A stretch of 64,000 bases of DNA from the NCBI GenBank assembly GCA_016201275.1, contig JACQDB010000017.1, positions 62,001-126,000 of the forward strand, given 5' to 3'. This DNA comes from Acidobacteriota bacterium. Its GTDB lineage: Bacteria; Acidobacteriota; Blastocatellia; UBA7656. Below, in pieces: positions 8,410 through 56,708 of this stretch (the stretch's first letter is position 1; every line of letters begins with the position of its first letter). The notes under the pieces were generated by a model. It worked only from the letters and a program-made list of their open reading frames with translations, searched no databases and was not told the origin of the DNA. The translations under genes and the position numbers were made by a program.

Positions 8410-8497
8410 TTTTACCACCAAGAACACCAAGAACATGAAGGCTCTCAAAAATTACTTTGTGAACCTTGGTGTTCTTGGTGTTCTTGGTGGTGAAAAA
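8410..8497. repeat. Inverted array of 9-bp words (ACCAAGAAC / GTTCTTGGT)
   Basis: TTTTACCACCAAGAACACC begins the left arm (8410-8435), which is mirrored by repeated TTCTTGGTG words in the right arm (8467-8497). About 25 bp can pair, with a 30-nt loop. It lies in the gap between the convergent 7767-8333 and 8522-9454 genes and could end transcription from both sides. It has the same architecture as the heptamer arrays elsewhere but a different word. Confidence 0.75.
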
Positions 8498-16982: not shown

Positions 16983-18212
16983 GTGTTCAATTCCATTAAA
17001 AAAATTCTCCCGATAATCCTTGTAGCCGCTTCCCTGTTGGCCGCCGCCTGTGGCGATAAACCCAGTGGCGGCGATGCCGATGTGGTCGCCAAAGTCGGCC
17101 CCAAAGAGATCACCATCAAACAAGTTGATACGGTCATCAAACAACAACTTGACCAAAGTCCCGGCGCAACCTTTACGCCTGCCGAACTGGCGGCGGCGCG
17201 TTTGTCCGTTTTAGACAATCTCATTCAAGAAGAAGCGTTCTTTCAAAAAGCCCAGAAGGATAATCTCGTTCCCGATGATAGCAAGGTCAATCAGGAATTA
17301 CAGAAACGCAAGCAGGATGCCGGTATGACCGAAGACCAATATCAACAGGGGCTGAAGAGTGCAGGCTTGTCCGAAGAGGAATACAAAGACAAGATTCGCC
17401 ATGAACTGGCCATCACCGCTTTACGCGATAAAGAGAAAACCCGTGTCAGTCCGCCCACCGACGATGAAGTGAAGAAGTATTACGAAGACCATCGCCAGGA
17501 ATTCAAAGCGGCGCGCGGCGTTGATCTGTCTTTGATTTCCGTCAATCCGCAAAACAACGGTGGCGACGCCGGTGCGGAACAAAAAATCAAAGCGATTTAT
17601 GCTCAACTCAAAGGCGGCGCGGATTTCGCCACCATCGCCGCATCACGTTCCGAAGACCCTTCCAACATACGCGGCGGCAACATCGGTTTTCTTTCCGAAG
17701 ACCAGTTGAAGCAAGGCTTCCCGACGCGCCCCGAAATCGTCCAGCGGTTGATGACTTCTATGAATCCGGGCGATTACACCGAGCCGTTGAAAGATAATAT
17801 CGCCGGAAACTGGGCGATTTTCAAACTTAACGCCCGTCGCGAAAAAGAAGAGAACCTTACTTTCGATAGCCCGGACGTCCGCAAAAGCATCGTTGATGCC
17901 ATCACTCAACAACGGCAGCAAGTGCTGTTCAACGCCTTGATGCTGGTGGCGATTTCGGAAAGCAACGCCAAGAATTATCTGGCCGAGCGCATCGTCGAAG
18001 ACCCCAAGCGCATCATCGAAATGAAACCTTCTGCTCTTTTAACCGAGGCCGCCAAGCAACAGCAACAGCAAACGCCGCAACCGCGAGTGGAAAATCAGAA
18101 TCAACCGGCCAAGAGCGCCACTAACTCGAACGCTGCCGCAACCACCAACTCGAATACCAAACCAGCGGCCAACAGCAACGCAAAACCGGCAACCGCTAAC
18201 CGCAATAAATAG
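16983..18212 (+). CDS. Peptidyl-prolyl isomerase lipoprotein (SurA/PpiC type)
   Basis: A 409-aa envelope chaperone. The lipoprotein signal has lipobox LAAAC near residue 25. A SurA-like N-domain (residues 35-160: DVVAKVGPKEITIKQVD) and a parvulin rotamase domain (about 170-290: SEDPSNIRGGNIGFLSEDQL) follow. The last 60 residues are a low-complexity Gln/Asn/Ala/Thr tail. AAGGAG at 16969-16974 fixes the GTG at 16983; a TTG at 16965 is less likely. It would fold outer-membrane or secreted proteins such as the exported peptidases. The rotamase active site is not verified residue by residue. Confidence 0.85.
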   Translation: MFNSIKKILPIILVAASLLAAACGDKPSGGDADVVAKVGPKEITIKQVDTVIKQQLDQSPGATFTPAELAAARLSVLDNLIQEEAFFQKAQKDNLVPDDSKVNQELQKRKQDAGMTEDQYQQGLKSAGLSEEEYKDKIRHELAITALRDKEKTRVSPPTDDEVKKYYEDHRQEFKAARGVDLSLISVNPQNNGGDAGAEQKIKAIYAQLKGGADFATIAASRSEDPSNIRGGNIGFLSEDQLKQGFPTRPEIVQRLMTSMNPGDYTEPLKDNIAGNWAIFKLNARREKEENLTFDSPDVRKSIVDAITQQRQQVLFNALMLVAISESNAKNYLAERIVEDPKRIIEMKPSALLTEAAKQQQQQTPQPRVENQNQPAKSATNSNAAATTNSNTKPAANSNAKPATANRNK

Positions 18213-18216
18213 TTAT

Positions 18217-18296
18217 TAGTCTTTCGTCCTTCGTCCTTAGTCCTTCGTGAAAGCGAGAATACGAAAGGCTGAGGACGAAGGACTGAGGACTAAGGA
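18217..18296. repeat. Inverted heptamer array (GTCCTTC / GGACGAA) in the leader of the ABC-F gene
   Basis: Heptamers GTCTTTC, GTCCTTC, GTCCTTA and GTCCTTC (18219-18248) are mirrored by GGCTGA, GGACGAA, GGACTGA, GGACTAA and GGACT (18267-18297). The final AAGGA (18292-18296) is 8 bases before the ATG at 18305 and is the only ribosome-binding site in view, so pairing of the two arrays would hide it. Confidence 0.75.
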
Positions 18297-18304
18297 CTCA
18301 TCAG

Positions 18305-20820: not shown

Positions 20821-20843
20821 AGCCGTTGTTACAATCACCTTTC

Positions 20844-20894
20844 GTTATTGGTTATTTGATTGAGTCATAAACCAGTAACCAATAACCAAAAATC
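20844..20894. repeat. Short inverted heptamer array (GTTATTG / AACCAAT) before hemE
   Basis: GTTATTGGTTATTTG (20844-20858) is mirrored by AACCAGTAACCAATAACC (20870-20887) across a 12-base loop. The array ends only a few bases before the hemE ATG, and no Shine-Dalgarno sequence is visible. It uses the same word as the pyr operon arrays. Confidence 0.65.
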
Positions 20895-20900
20895 AAATCT

Positions 20901-25816: not shown

Positions 25817-26875
25817 ATGGAAGGCAAGAAGTTAATCCATTCAATTCGTCTGCGAAACTTTCTTTCTTACGGAGGGCAAGGCGAAGAAATAAAACTTGAG
25901 CCATTGAATGTCTTAATCGGTCGCAACGCTTCGGGCAAATCGAATTTGATAGAAGCGATCAACTTGCTTCACGCAGCACCGGTCAATCTTGCTTCTCCAA
26001 TTCAACAAGGCGGTGGCATTTCTGAGTGGATTTGGAAAGGAAGACAAGAAAATTCAACAACTCCTGCTTTTTTAGAAGCAATCATAGATTACCCGGAAGG
26101 CATCAACCCGTTGCTCTATCATATCGAAATCGCTGCCAATGGTCAGCGGTTACAAGTTGCGAACGAGTCTATCGCAAACAGCCTGCCTCGAAAACTTTCC
26201 GAAATGGAGATATTTTATGGCACTGCGGGAGGGCAAGGTATCCTACGGATTCGGCAGGCGACAAAACAGAAGGCGGGAAGTAGTAAAGGTAGAAAAGAGA
26301 TTTCTTTTACCAGAGAGGAACAAGAAAATTCTATTTTATCGCTACGAAAAGATCCCATTGCATTTCCAGAAATCACTTATTTAGGCAATATTTTCACTCA
26401 GTTTCGTATCTACAGAACCTTCAACCTGAGAAATGGCTCAACAGGGAGATTTCCTCAAAGAGCAGATTTACCAGATGATTTTTTACTGGAAGACGCCAGC
26501 AATCTTGGGCTGATATTAAGTGACTTGCAATATAAAGGTATTGAAGGAACTCTCATCGAGAAATTGAAATTGTTTCATCCTGCAATAGAAGCACTGAATT
26601 TGAAAGTTCAGGGAAATACCATACAGCTTTTTATTCGAGAAGAAAATTTCACCCCGCCTACGCCAGCCTCTCGACTATCAGAAGGAACACTTCGTTACCT
26701 CTGTCTATTAACCATTCTCTGTCACCCGGAGCCGCCGCCGTTGATTTGCATCGAAGAGCCTGAGCTTGGCTTGCATCCAGATATTTTAAAACTGCTTGAT
26801 ATGGATAAAGTATGCGGAGCTGCGCCGTATTGCGAGCGACTCTTCAAAACATTGGAAGAAAAAATTACCTCTTAA
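25817..26875 (+). pseudogene. AAA15/RecF-like ATPase, C-terminally rearranged
   Basis: A 352-aa reading frame with AGGAG before the ATG. The N-terminal half is a clear SMC/RecF-like ATPase: RLRNFLSYG, Walker A GRNASGKSN and LIEAINLLH. Near the end come the signature region SEGTLRYLCLLTIL and Walker B LICIEEPELGLHPD. Normally 60-80 more residues with a switch histidine (TTHS) follow. Here the text jumps to LLDMDKVCGAAPYCERLFKT and stops. That tail resembles the C-terminus of DUF4276 proteins, which are often encoded behind such ATPases, so a deletion may have fused the two. Base composition is visibly richer in A/T than its neighbours, which suggests transfer. It may be inactive. Confidence 0.7.
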
Positions 26876-26882
26876 CCTCTCG

Positions 26883-28163
26883 TCATTCTTCGGCGCGATA
26901 GACTTCCCTGCCTGCAACAAACGTGGCGATGACTTTGCCGCGCAGCGTCCAATTCGCAAACGGCGTGTTGCGGCTCTTGGATTTGAATTTCACAGGGTCA
27001 ACCGTCCATACGGCATCGGGATTGAAAATCGTCAGATCGGCAATCGCGCCTTTCTGCAAGGTGCCGCGCGGCAGCGCAAAGACTCGCGCCGCGCCCACGG
27101 TCAACATCTCGACGAGGCGCATGACAGAGACCGCTCCCGATTCTACCAAAACCTTGAAACAGGCTCCCAGAGCCGTTTCCAAGCCAATCACGCCAAACGG
27201 AGCGCGGTCAAATTCCAGCATCTTTTCATCCGCATGGTGCGGCGCGTGGTCGGTGGCGATGGCGTCAATCGTGCCATCGGCGCACGCTTCAATCAACGCC
27301 AGCCGATCTTCTTCACTTCGCAAGGGCGGATTCATTTTGGTGTTGGCATCAAATCCCAATACTTCGGCATCGGTCAACGCCAGATGATGCGGCGTCACTT
27401 CGCACGTCACCGGCAAGCCACGGCGTTTGGCGTCGCGCACCAACTCGACCGCTCTTGCCGTAGAGATGTGCATGATGTGCGCCCTCGCACCGGTCAATTC
27501 CGCCAGCATGATGTCACGCGCTACGTGGCTGTCTTCGGCAGCGCCGCTCATGCCTTTCAAACCGAGCAGCGTCGAATACTTGCCTTCGTGCATGACGCCG
27601 CAAGCCGCCAGACAATTATCCTGACAATGATCGGCGACCACTAAATCATGGTCACGCGCATATTCCATCGCGTGACGCATCACTTGTGCGTTCATCACTG
27701 GCTTGCCATCGTCGGAGACCGCCACCGCGCCCGCTGCTTTCATCTCCGCCATCTCTGCGAGTTCTTCGCCAAGCGAGCCTCGCGTAATCGCGCCAACCGG
27801 AAAGACATTCGCCAGATTTGCCTGTCGCGCCTGGTCGAGAATGTAGCGCGTAATCGAAGCGTTATCATTCACCGGTGTGGTATTGGGCATCGAACAGACC
27901 GACGTGAAACCGCCAGCCACAGCCGCTTGCAAGCCCGTAGCGATGGTCTCTTTGTACTCTTCGCCGGGTTCGCGCAAATGTACGTGGAGGTCTATGAAGC
28001 CGGGGGCAACGAGCAAACCGCTGGCAGCAAAAACCGCCGCGCCTTGGCTGGATAAATCGTTGCCGATTTCGGCAATCCGTCCGTCTTCAATCAGCAGGTC
28101 AGCGATTTTTTCCAAGCCTTGTGAAGGGTCTAAAATTTTCCCGCCGGTGATTAATAATTTCAT
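26883..28163 (-). CDS. pyrC: Dihydroorotase
   Basis: A 426-aa class I dihydroorotase. The metal site is [13 protein letters not shown], later histidines are VVADHCQDN and [12 protein letters not shown], and the catalytic Asp is in [10 protein letters not shown]. It cyclises carbamoyl-aspartate to dihydroorotate. It is the third gene of pyrR-pyrB-pyrC on this strand. The ATG at 28163 directly abuts a heptamer array and has no Shine-Dalgarno sequence. Length and motifs are normal. Confidence 0.96.
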
Positions 28164-28454
28164 ATTGGTTATTGGTTACTGGTTATTGGTTACTGGTTAT
28201 TGGTTACTGGTTATTGGTTACTGGTTATTGGTTACTGGTTATTCGTAGTAATGATGAAGGAGTAACCAACTCGATTGTTGTGATTTGGTTTTTTTGAGAT
28301 GCAACGCAGTTGTATATTGTGCTGCTGAATCATCAGACCACAATATACAGACAACAAAATTCAAAGATCGGCGAGGGAATCGCCAAAACACAACAGTCGA
28401 GCAACCAATAACCAGTAACCAATAACCAGTAACCAATAACCAATAACCAATAAC
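28164..28454. repeat. Paired inverted heptamer arrays between pyrB and pyrC
   Basis: Eleven heptamers alternate ATTGGTT and ACTGGTT at 28164-28240. They are mirrored by seven AACCAAT/AACCAGT heptamers at 28403-28451. The 159-base centre holds a further hairpin (GTATATTGTG near 28314, CACAATATAC near 28341). The first array touches the pyrC start codon. In all frames the arrays are open, which produces spurious GYWLLV-type peptides. Confidence 0.85.
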
Positions 28455-28459
28455 GATTT

Positions 28460-29416
28460 TTATCCTTCGCCTAAGCCGCGACTCTGCATCAGCAGAAACA
28501 GTATGGCCATACGCACGGCGACGCCGTTGGTCACTTGATCGAGAATCAACGAGCGCGCATTGTCCACTACGTCGGAACTGATTTCAACGCCGCGATTGAC
28601 CGGCCCCGGATGCATGACGATGGCTTCCTGGCTGGCTAAAGCAAAGCGCTCAAGCGTCAAGCCGTAACGAATTGAATACTCTTTCAACGAAGGGAAATAG
28701 GCGGCGCTCATGCGCTCGTGTTGAATGCGAAGCATCATTACGACATCGGCATCCAGAATGGCATCTTCGACTTTAGCGCAAACCGTAAGCGAGCCTTCAC
28801 CATCTTCAACGATTTCGGCAAAGCGCGGCGGCAGCAAAGTTCGTGGCCCGGCGACGCGAACGTGCGCGCCGAGTTTGGTCAATAAGTGAACATTGGAACG
28901 CGCTACGCGGCTGTGGGTGATGTCGCCGATGATGGCGATTTGCAAACCCGCTATGCGCCCTTTGCGTTCGCGTATGGTGTAGGCGTCGAGCAGCGCCTGC
29001 GAAGGGTGTTCGTGCGCGCCATCGCCAGCATTGACGACCGACGAATCAATCAGCCTGGCCAGTTGATGCGGCACGCCGGGCGACGAATGGCGTATGACGA
29101 TGACATCGGGAGCCATCGCTTCGAGATTGCGCGCTGTGTCTATGAGGGTTTCGCCTTTGGTGACCGAAGAGGTCGAAGCAGAAATGTTGATGGTGTCCGC
29201 CGACAAGCGTTTTCCGGCGATTTCAAAAGAGGTGCGGGTGCGCGTCGAGGCTTCAAAGAAAAAGTTGATGACCGTTTTGCCGCGTAAAGTCGGCACTTTT
29301 TTAATTGAACGGGCAGAGACTTCTTTGAAAGAGTGCGCCGTGTCGAGGATGGTGTTGATCTCCTCAACCGAAAGTTCGCGGATGCCGAGCAGGTCTTTTC
29401 TAGTAAACTTGGTCAT
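28460..29416 (-). CDS. pyrB: Aspartate carbamoyltransferase, catalytic subunit
   Basis: A 318-aa enzyme joining carbamoyl phosphate and aspartate. Carbamoyl-phosphate binding motif [13 protein letters not shown], then [12 protein letters not shown], and the aspartate loop region RIQHERM are all present. No regulatory pyrI gene is seen next to it. The start codon lies at the very edge of a heptamer array (AACCAATGACC on the coding strand), with no Shine-Dalgarno sequence. It lies between pyrR and pyrC. Confidence 0.96.
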
Positions 29417-29488
29417 TGGTTACTTGTTACTGGTTAGTGGTTATTAGCAATGAAAGAGACCAGGAACCAATAACCAGTAATCAATAAC
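29415..29488. repeat. Inverted heptamer array between pyrR and pyrB
   Basis: ATTGGTT, ACTTGTT, ACTGGTT and AGTGGTT (29415-29442) are mirrored by AACCAAT, AACCAGT and AATCAAT (29465-29485). The array fills the whole gap and reaches into the pyrB start codon. The word is the same as in the pyrB-pyrC gap, but it is more diverged. Confidence 0.8.
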
Positions 29489-29490
29489 GA

Positions 29491-30036
29491 TTACTCTTTT
29501 TCAACGATCACTACTTGTTCATCTTCGTCATAATCCGTGAGCATGACTTTGACGATTTCGGCATCGGAAGTTTGCAAATGCTTGCCAACGTAATCGGCTT
29601 GGATAGGCAATTCCCGATGACCGCGATCAATCAACACGGCGAGTTCGACGCGGCGCGGTCGCCCGAAATCCACCAGTTCATCGAGAGCAGCGCGAATCGT
29701 GCGCCCGGTATAAAGCACATCGTCAACCAAAACGATGGCGCGGTCGGTCACATCGCCGGGGATTTCGGTTTTATTAATTACCGGGCGCGGCCCCACAGTC
29801 GAGAGGTCGTCACGATAAAGCGTGATGTCGAGTTGACCGGTGGGCGGGCGTTGCCCTTCAAGTTGTGCGATGGTGTCGGCAAGGCGTTCGGCCAATGGCA
29901 CGCCGCGTCGCCGTATGCCGATCAACAATAAATCTGAAGTCCCGGCATTGCGCTCAACAATCTGCAAAGCGAGTCTGGACAGCGTGCGGCTGATGCCCGC
30001 TGCATCCATCACCTGAGCTTTTAATTTGAATTCCAT
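29491..30036 (-). CDS. pyrR: PyrR bifunctional regulator / uracil phosphoribosyltransferase
   Basis: A 181-aa PRPP-binding protein. The signature is [44 protein letters not shown] and [16 protein letters not shown] are typical of PyrR. PyrR binds UMP and pyr mRNA to attenuate pyr transcription, and makes UMP from uracil. The ATG at 30036 is chosen because the family begins here; a longer reading to 30183 adds 49 unrelated residues. A likely promoter lies at 30067-30096. I could not identify a convincing PyrR-binding RNA loop. Confidence 0.93.
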
Positions 30037-30130: not shown

Positions 30131-30712
30131 TTACGCCGGATCGGCTTTGTCGAGTAACGGAAATTCCAGATGCGTGACGCCATAGCTGGCGCTGCTGGTG
30201 AGGGCGTAACCGGCTTTACGAAAGACGCTGATCATCACCAAATTATCCACCAGCACATCGGCGCTGAAATGGGTGATGTCATGGGCGCGGGCAATCTCGG
30301 CCAGGGCGTCGAGCAACTGCGTGCCGATGCCGCGTTTTTGAAAATCGTCTTCGACCAGAAAAGCGACTTCGGCAACCTGTGGGCGGTCGGCAATCACATG
30401 GTAGCGGCCAACGGCGATGATGCGATTTTCAGGCTCCTCCAGTGGCACGACGACCAACGCCAACTGGGTCGCGCCATCTACCTTCACCAACCGGTCGAGC
30501 AGTTCAACGGGCAGCGATTTGATGGTGCTTAAAAACCGATAGCGAATGGATTCCGGCGAGCAACGATGAAAGAGCGCTTTCAAGCCGTCGCGGTCGGACG
30601 GGCGCAGGGCGCGCAGGCGCAGCAAGGTGCCATCGCGCAGTAACAAGTCTTGGTGATAAGCGGCCACAGGAGTGACGGAGCGCGTGGTTTGCAACGGTAA
30701 TTTTTTTGACAT
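30131..30712 (-). CDS. GNAT-family N-acetyltransferase
   Basis: A 193-aa acetyl-CoA-dependent acetyltransferase. The cofactor loop is [13 protein letters not shown]; the start of the fold ([20 protein letters not shown]) and [11 protein letters not shown] near the end complete the domain. The wording resembles the GNAT part of Pat-type protein lysine acetyltransferases. GAGAGG supports the ATG at 30712 rather than 30730. Substrate unknown. Confidence 0.85.
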
Positions 30713-30848
30713 GAAGTTTTCCTCTCTCAAGCACAGGAGGCCGAAAACCTTATGAATGGTTTACTCCGAACTTCACCACGCGTCAATGCGGGTTTCTAGT
30801 GAATGGAAAAATAGATAGCGCTTCAACCAGGTGAGAAAGAAAAAAGTT

Positions 30849-30932
30849 TCGTCGTACCGTCTTCAAACCAATGGCATGAAGTTAAGGATTTCTCTTTCAC
30901 TTCATGCTATTAGTTTGAAGATGGTACGATGA
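30849..30932 (-). terminator. Long hairpin with T-tract, copy 2 of a dispersed repeat
   Basis: Arms 30849-30882 and 30899-30932 are 34 nt each, with about four mismatches, and the loop is 16 nt. On the minus strand the stem is followed by AAACTTTTTTC, so it would end transcription of the hybrid kinase gene that stops at 30951. The left arm and its flank match 13777-13823. Confidence 0.75.
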
Positions 30933-30950
30933 AGCGGTTTGACGGTTGCC

Positions 30951-50596: not shown

Positions 50597-50670
50597 CTTG
50601 TCGGTTGTCAGTTGTCAGCTGTCAGTTGTCAGTTGAAGAATATCAGCAACGGACAACTGACAACTAACAA
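50597..50670. repeat. Inverted heptamer array (TCAGTTG / CAACTGA) before the second cysteine desulfurase
   Basis: TCGGTTG, TCAGTTG, TCAGCTG, TCAGTTG and TCAGTTG run at 50601-50635. They are mirrored by CAACTGACAACTAACAA at 50655-50671. The array fills the whole gap and touches the start codon, as in the pyr operon but with another word. Confidence 0.8.
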
Positions 50671-52641: not shown

Positions 52642-52657
52642 CCAAAACCATCTTTTC

Positions 52658-52723
52658 TCCCTCACTCCCCTACTCCCTCACTCCCCTACTCCCCTACTCC
52701 CCTACTCCCTTACTTCCCTACTC
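52658..52723. repeat. Octamer array, G-rich on the coding strand of the isc genes
   Basis: CTCCCCTA-type octamers (CCTACTCC, CTCACTCC) repeat about eight times just downstream of the hscA stop. On the transcribed-sense (minus) strand this gives eight or more runs of three or four G spaced by four to five bases, a layout able to form G-quadruplexes in the mRNA. No inverted partner array is present. Confidence 0.7.
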
Positions 52724-56462: not shown

Positions 56463-56708
56463 AGCGGTCGAAGACCGCTTCTCAACAAAAATTATAGTTC
56501 CAACGAATCGCTGTTTCGTAAGCGGTCGAAGACCGCTTCTCAACAAAAATTATAGTTTCAACGAATCGTTGTTGCGTAAGCGGTCAAAGACTGCCTCGCA
56601 ACAAAAATTATAGTTTCAACGAATCGTTGTTGCGTGCATTGTTTCTTGAGCAAGAGGATAAACCTACGCCTATTATACGTTTCAACGAATCGTTGTTGCG
56701 TGCATTGA
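56463..56708. repeat. 58-bp tandem repeat in the iscU-iscA gap
   Basis: Two near-identical 58-base units lie at 56463-56520 and 56521-56578, a diverged third at 56579-56636, and a fragment at 56680-56708. Each unit starts with the palindrome GCGGTC-GAA-GACCGC and TCTCAAC and contains AAAAATTATAG and CGAATCGTTGTTGCG. The palindrome is also found at 48254 and 52533. Confidence 0.85.

Follow-up and report, generated by a model that had tools for sequence, protein, structure and literature searches.

Inverted tandem heptamer arrays behind stop codons, in the pyrB-pyrC gap and across an Acidobacteriota genome

Introduction

Several families of short intergenic repeats in bacteria form hairpins close to gene ends. 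The REP/BIME elements of enterobacteria form hairpins behind stop codons, in co-directional or convergent gaps and rarely in divergent ones; individual REPs are single palindromes of 20–40 nt with a GTAG foot and an associated RAYT. The STRR heptamers of cyanobacteria are kindred heptamer repeats. The closest described systems are the heptameric repeats GGGAATC of Xanthomonas and GGGGA(C/T)T of Nostoc (Rehm et al., 2015; PMC4692102). Heptamer repeats are over-represented in bacterial genomes without an accepted function, and a proposal cited by the same authors relates the number seven to the stretch of DNA held by polymerase (PMC4692102). TAACTGA direct repeats have been described in Beggiatoaceae, Cyanobacteria, and Bacteroidetes (MacGregor, 2015; PMC4679880), and degenerate heptanucleotide repeats occur in the P6b stem of the Nostoc tRNA-Leu intron (PMC3488679).

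The locus considered here lies in a window of 64,000 nt, the whole stretch of DNA analyzed, from an Acidobacteriota bacterium (class Blastocatellia; assembly GCA_016201275.1, contig JACQDB010000017.1, positions 62,001–126,000). Its repeats share with those of Xanthomonas and Nostoc the tandem heptamers, often in convergent (inverted) pairs, a G-rich strand directly behind the stop codon, a mostly co-directional placement that avoids divergent gaps, and an association with general metabolic genes. The defining 7-nt units, inverted pairs (84 of 112 arrays in this genome at a looser detection threshold), and position behind stops with few divergent gaps are all present, but the G-tracts required for G-quadruplexes are absent: ATTGGTT contains no G run longer than two, and the units found here are no G-quadruplex formers. 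Additionally, many unrelated units occur per genome here and turn over at orthologous gaps, whereas a comparison of two Xanthomonas species finds a single family retained at 83% of its places.

With the TAACTGA repeats, the present ones have in common intergenic heptamer arrays, many ending a few nt from a start codon that lacks a Shine-Dalgarno sequence, related heptamers (TAACTGA, TAACCAA), and 7-nt indels between strains (PMC4679880). However, those repeats are direct (with one inverted case) and anchored at starts, whereas the unit here, TAACCAA/TAACCAG, forms inverted pairs anchored at stops and so falls outside the TAACTGA direct repeats. In the P6b stem, as here, heptamers on both arms pair and hairpin length follows copy number (PMC3488679); that repeat, however, belongs to an intron within a tRNA gene, whereas those here separate protein genes. 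The position behind stops is shared with REP/BIME, but the elements here are tandem heptamers, and no GTAG is found at the foot of the palindrome.

Sampling and gene calls

The sample of the genome containing the window (hereafter, the own genome) covered 1.15 of 6.84 Mb in 61 stretches, about one third of which were picked for carrying the pyrB-pyrC unit, inflating the share of that unit. The three sampled relatives, from two families within the class, contributed ~1.1 Mb. Gene calls come from a simple caller based on codon usage and written for this work, which recovers the pyr genes and misses some others (e.g., the ORF at 25817–26875). All counts rest on this caller and on partial genomes, and sites within one genome are not fully independent. 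For comparisons of orthologous gaps, orthologues of pyrB, mraY, and pilT were taken from up to 38 relatives, and the gaps on both sides of each (six gaps) were examined. Hairpins of the pyrB-pyrC unit were searched for in ~85,000 species genomes.

The pyrB-pyrC gap

The genes pyrR (29491–30036), pyrB (aspartate carbamoyltransferase; 28460–29416), and pyrC (dihydroorotase; 26883–28163) lie on the minus strand and are identified by NCBIfam models (PyrR in the case of pyrR); the pyrC start matches that of its orthologues. A preliminary description of this DNA had reported eleven ATTGGTT/ACTGGTT heptamers reaching the pyrC ATG, which is exact: the array spans 28164–28240, all 11 units are perfect (in the order ATTGGTT, ATTGGTT, ACTGGTT, ATTGGTT, ACTGGTT, and so on), and it directly adjoins the start codon, the complement of 28161–28163. 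On the sense (minus) strand, these units read AACCAAT/AACCAGT and constitute the 3′ arm of a hairpin. The seven complementary units noted about 160 bases away are likewise present, at 28403–28451, behind a spacer of 162 nt. They read AACCAAT/AACCAGT on the plus strand and, as 7 × ATTGGTT/ACTGGTT on the minus strand, form the 5′ arm, which starts ~8 nt past the pyrB stop codon. The spacer (28241–28402, minus strand) is the hairpin loop and contains nested stems of its own. The repeat far exceeds chance: its TRF score is 156, and shuffled loci yielded no period-7 runs at the score threshold of this repeat.

The proposal that the whole gap could fold into one long hairpin holds thermodynamically. 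The predicted sense-strand RNA fold is a single hairpin of −143.5 kcal/mol, as compared with −60.7 ± 4.8 kcal/mol for shuffled sequences (z −17). Its foot holds both the stop and the start codon, with ~10 nt unpaired on each side, and the presence of 11 perfect units against seven allows several pairing registers. The predicted unpaired probability of the pyrC start region is 0.30 with the 5′ arm and 0.74 without it, which suggests that this arm may hide the pyrC start. Translational coupling of pyrB and pyrC through the hairpin is possible on the basis of the predicted fold; when a ribosome covering the pyrB stop was simulated, the pyrC start did not open steadily. Though pyrC does lack a Shine-Dalgarno sequence, as previously stated, this is ordinary in the genome, where 471 of 761 other genes lack one in an identical scan. 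pyrC is one of few extreme cases in which the array itself reaches the ATG.

No convincing intrinsic terminator, for which a G+C-rich stem should precede a T run on the sense strand, was seen in either pyr gap, and the array does not form one; the lone sense-strand candidate in the pyrB-pyrC gap, at 28386–28368 with the tail TCTTTGAATT, lies inside the loop. Neither pyr gap matches a known RNA family in Rfam, and thus no PyrR-dependent attenuator was found. A second heptamer hairpin, built from the same unit as the pyrB-pyrC hairpin and shorter, fills the 74-nt pyrR-pyrB gap (29417–29490, minus strand), its last unit overlapping the pyrB ATG (AACCAATG). Separately, a long near-perfect inverted repeat occupies 30841–30940, upstream of 30131–30730; its weak Rfam microRNA matches are surely spurious.

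Besides those in the pyr gaps, the window has heptamer hairpins in three further gaps; two of these hairpins use unrelated units. A hairpin of the pyrB-pyrC unit stands in front of hemE (20840–20897, plus strand). A GTCCTTC/AGGACTA hairpin (18211–18298, plus strand) separates an ABC-F gene from the gene for a SurA-like peptidylprolyl isomerase upstream, which ends with TAG at the hairpin edge, and a third unit, TTGTCAG/CTGACAA, forms a hairpin that takes up the gap preceding nifS (50597–50670, minus strand).

Period 7 in the genome and its relatives

Among tandem repeats in all four sampled genomes, seven is the most frequent period, and dozens of unrelated units have it. The own-genome sample contained 92 period-7 runs, and no other period between 5 and 12 gave more than 15; the three relatives contained 62, 39, and 42, against no more than eight for other periods. 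The 27 unit classes of the own genome are dominated by AACCAAT/AACCAGT (~58%, a share inflated by the sampling), and units in the relatives include AAAACTG, AAGTCAG, ACCCATC, and AATGCGG; AAAATTG, AATCGGC, and AAAATGG; and ACTGCTC, ACTGCCC, and AAACTTG. Heptamer hairpins occur in operons as unrelated as pyr, mur, pil, pur, opp, nifS, ilvD, and hemE.

Whatever the unit, the arms are polar: of the 53 genome-by-unit classes from the four genomes, 45 have a first arm rich in G/T and a second rich in A/C (p 2e-7). Sense-strand G-U pairs in the arms show no excess over A-C mismatches (37 vs 43), a result on which RNA covariation was rejected. The unit order of the two arms is not mirrored (P 0.84), leading us to reject arm-to-arm copying, and T/C variants match no more often than expected by chance. 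Loops are essentially unshared between hairpins, with the exception of one pair (L072/L120). The lack of a G-U excess argues against tight selection at the RNA level, the unmirrored arms against recent copying from arm to arm, and the unshared loops against a MITE. In the exceptional pair (L072 13293 and L120 7233), the loops of the heptamer hairpins have a common second, inner hairpin (CTTGAAACAGGCTACAGGAGCCGCTTTCAAG).

Placement relative to genes

The preliminary description had made its proposal depend on placement relative to start codons. Placement relative to gene edges is indeed far from random; the anchor, however, is the upstream stop codon and not the start. For 95% of hairpins in the own genome, the 5′ edge lies ≤20 nt from the upstream stop, whereas random placement in co-directional gaps gives 7%, with a maximum of 21%. 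The start-facing edge is looser (52% ≤20 nt from the start, median 19), leaving room for a ribosome-binding site, and start-codon anchoring was set aside as the weaker of the two. Shine-Dalgarno sequences are not depleted behind heptamer hairpins (13 of 38, vs 290 of 761 elsewhere).

Placed heptamer hairpins in the own genome (n = 40) are co-directional in 38 cases, divergent in two, and never convergent (length-expected 26, 9, and 5; p ~1e-5). Across the four genomes (n = 86), 71 are co-directional, seven divergent, and eight convergent, where 56, 19, and 11 are expected. One relative, G003, taken alone (nine, four, and four, respectively) shows no co-directional preference, and strict co-directional placement as a universal rule was rejected given the convergent copies in other genomes and phyla. 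Closeness to stops is present in all four sampled genomes.

The identity of the stop codon is also unusual in the own genome, being TAG at 24 of 38 hairpins and at 156 of 761 genes (20%) elsewhere (p 4e-8). The stop is often itself part of the repeat, as in TAGTCAT TAGTCAT…, TGAGGAC TGAGGAC…, or TAG TTATTGG with the next copy TGG TTATTGG; the stop bases match those one or two periods further on more often than drawn stops do (54 vs 42 of 84; 0 of 2000 draws). Both the TAG excess and the excess of in-register stops are significant in the own genome only.

Non-periodic inverted repeats in the own sample show no co-directional preference (107 co-directional, 22 divergent, 46 convergent), and pooled over the four genomes such hairpins are enriched in convergent gaps (62 vs 33 expected). 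Families of non-periodic hairpins (TGCGGCTGTGCCGC, GTACGGGCGACC, AATCCCCCCAACGGCAGTTGGGGG, and CTATATGCGCGGCACACCAAGATTCGG) occur at many places in L061–L120 and resemble REP-type families; one non-periodic hairpin adjoins a double Y1 transposase gene (contig C80).

Orthologous gaps and other phyla

Period-7 arrays were present in 28 of 142 orthologous-gap cases, and arrays of all other periods combined in six. In every one of the six gaps, the heptamers are mostly different between genomes. The pilB-pilT gap, for example, carries ATTGGTT in the own genome, GCGGATT with GAATCCT in G002, TTTTCAG in G003, and TTGAGAG in G013; the pyrR-pyrB gap in relatives carries GACCACT, GTGATGC, or CAGTGGC. 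The architecture outlasts the sequence of the unit, since a given gap is occupied by unrelated heptamers in different relatives. The median length of orthologous gaps is 38 nt without an array (several being overlapping ATGA junctions) and 99 nt with one.

Among the matches listed, hairpins of the pyrB-pyrC unit itself occur in Rubrobacter, cyanobacteria, Bacteroidota, Planctomycetota, Chloroflexi, Desulfobulbus, Deinococcales, Peregrinibacteria, and others. Those in Bacteroidota lie in 19 co-directional, eight convergent, and three divergent gaps, their edges mostly a few nt from stops. No hairpins of this unit were found in viral contigs, and a viral origin was rejected on this basis. A comparison of two close cyanobacterial relatives shows a 7-nt indel at the edge of one hairpin; within the same stretch, another array differs by two 7-nt indels, and a second hairpin is constant in length. 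In the pair L270/L316, array length is unchanged.

Proposed explanation and alternatives

The pyrB-pyrC repeat is one copy of a genome-wide class of inverted tandem heptamer arrays located between a stop codon and the start region of the next, mostly co-directional, gene. Our best reading of this class, which we consider to have roughly an even chance of being correct, is a new variant of the inverted heptamer repeats of the Xanthomonas/Nostoc GGGAATC kind, formed at the DNA level and kept behind stop codons. The suggestion in the preliminary description of a repeat that tolerates gene edges came closer to this than did its pyrC leader.

Arrays would lengthen and shorten at the DNA level through 7-nt slippage, often beginning at the stop-containing heptamer; duplication of that heptamer downstream leaves the protein unchanged. 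Units would spread or be replaced within the genome. Inverted, gap-filling arrays would survive because their transcript folds compactly between stop and start, leaving no long naked untranslated stretch within the operon. Such selection on the transcribed product, favoring a compact hairpin over a naked operon gap, is our preferred but unproven explanation of how DNA-level growth finds stop codons. A side effect on pyrC is likely but unproven; the hairpin would partly hide the start and bring it near the pyrB stop, making pyrC translation partly dependent on ribosomes finishing pyrB.

Slippage finds limited support in the 7-nt indels of one cyanobacterial species pair and in published indels between Cyanothece strains (PMC4679880). 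Several points run against the explanation as a whole: slippage of DNA polymerase is by itself blind to stops, and random insertions would mostly hit longer gaps, so that stop anchoring requires selection or another mechanism; an inverted partner accompanies roughly three in four arrays, beyond what slippage alone explains; the TAG and in-register stop excesses reach significance in the own genome only; the co-directional preference is not universal (G003, 9/4/4; convergent copies in Bacteroidota); and slippage was observed in one species pair only.

A tentative alternative, which we consider possible though rather doubtful, is a functional intercistronic RNA hairpin that couples or insulates translation, blocks Rho or nucleases, or slows ribosomes at the stop; this would need a hairpin flush with the stop, of any unit. 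The stop anchoring and gap filling within operons, the very stable fold, the change in predicted unpaired probability at the pyrC start upon removal of the 5′ arm (0.30 to 0.74), the recurrence of unrelated hairpins in the same gaps, and the avoidance of divergent gaps are all in its favor. However, G-U is not favored over A-C on the sense strand, T/C variants of the arms match no better than chance, and simulated ribosome shielding at the stop gave no steady opening; additionally, at the corresponding positions most relatives lack an array or have only a tiny gap, indicating that the hairpin is dispensable.

A more general functional class, independent of sequence, seems unlikely but is worth stating. 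Any heptamer would serve provided that it forms a polar (G/T-rich, then A/C-rich) sliding hairpin flush with the stop; the period of seven would be set not by sequence but by a cellular machine, whether the terminating ribosome, an RNA-binding protein, or polymerase, and the same gaps would be refilled repeatedly with new units. Four regularities in one genome class are independent of the unit (period 7, inverted pairing, G/T-then-A/C polarity, and position flush with stops), and the turnover of units at orthologous gaps makes the questions of why seven, and what for, testable through paired gaps that differ in the heptamer alone.

It is improbable that the arrays are mobile elements (REP/REPIN or MITE) dependent on a transposase, whether Y1 (RAYT-like) or another. 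The scattering of one unit over a genome in many copies, a 3′-end niche as in REPs, and Y1_Tnp genes in five of five genomes tested are compatible with mobility, but copies have no common loops, units differ among genera at the same gap, and a conserved GTAG foot is absent. Of the Y1 loci checked, two in the own genome and the C80 pair have no heptamer arrays next to them, though one G003 locus has some. A REP/RAYT system is unsupported, the GTAG foot being absent and the three own-genome Y1 places read showing no arrays, and a MITE with a conserved interior was rejected, loops being unshared except in L072/L120.

A tunable or phase-variable pyrC leader, in which array copy number at the ATG would set pyrC translation and change by slippage, is the least credible reading: although the array touches an ATG without a Shine-Dalgarno sequence and its 11 perfect units against seven permit several pairing registers, like hairpins separate many unrelated housekeeping genes, relatives carry unrelated heptamers in the corresponding gaps, anchoring is at stops rather than starts with no Shine-Dalgarno depletion (13/38 vs 290/761), and Rehm et al. 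saw little likelihood of phase variation in the Xanthomonas case (PMC4692102). An array at a single gene should not be taken for a gene-specific regulatory leader.

Other repeats in the window

The window contains further repeats of other kinds. A convergent gap at 8410–8495 holds a hairpin of 9-nt units (CACCAAGAA), similar in architecture and different in period. At 52657–52723 lies a C-rich 16-bp (8+8) array, CTCCCTCACTCCCCTA, without an inverted partner; arrays of GGGGAGAA, with a 16-nt period, resemble it and form inverted pairs at L061 7869–8052 and L067 9204–9802. Finally, a 58-bp unit is repeated three times in tandem at 56463–56635, with a AGCGGTCGAAGACCGCTTCTCAAC hairpin, and other gaps in the genome also contain single hairpins with the GCGGTC…GACCGC core.
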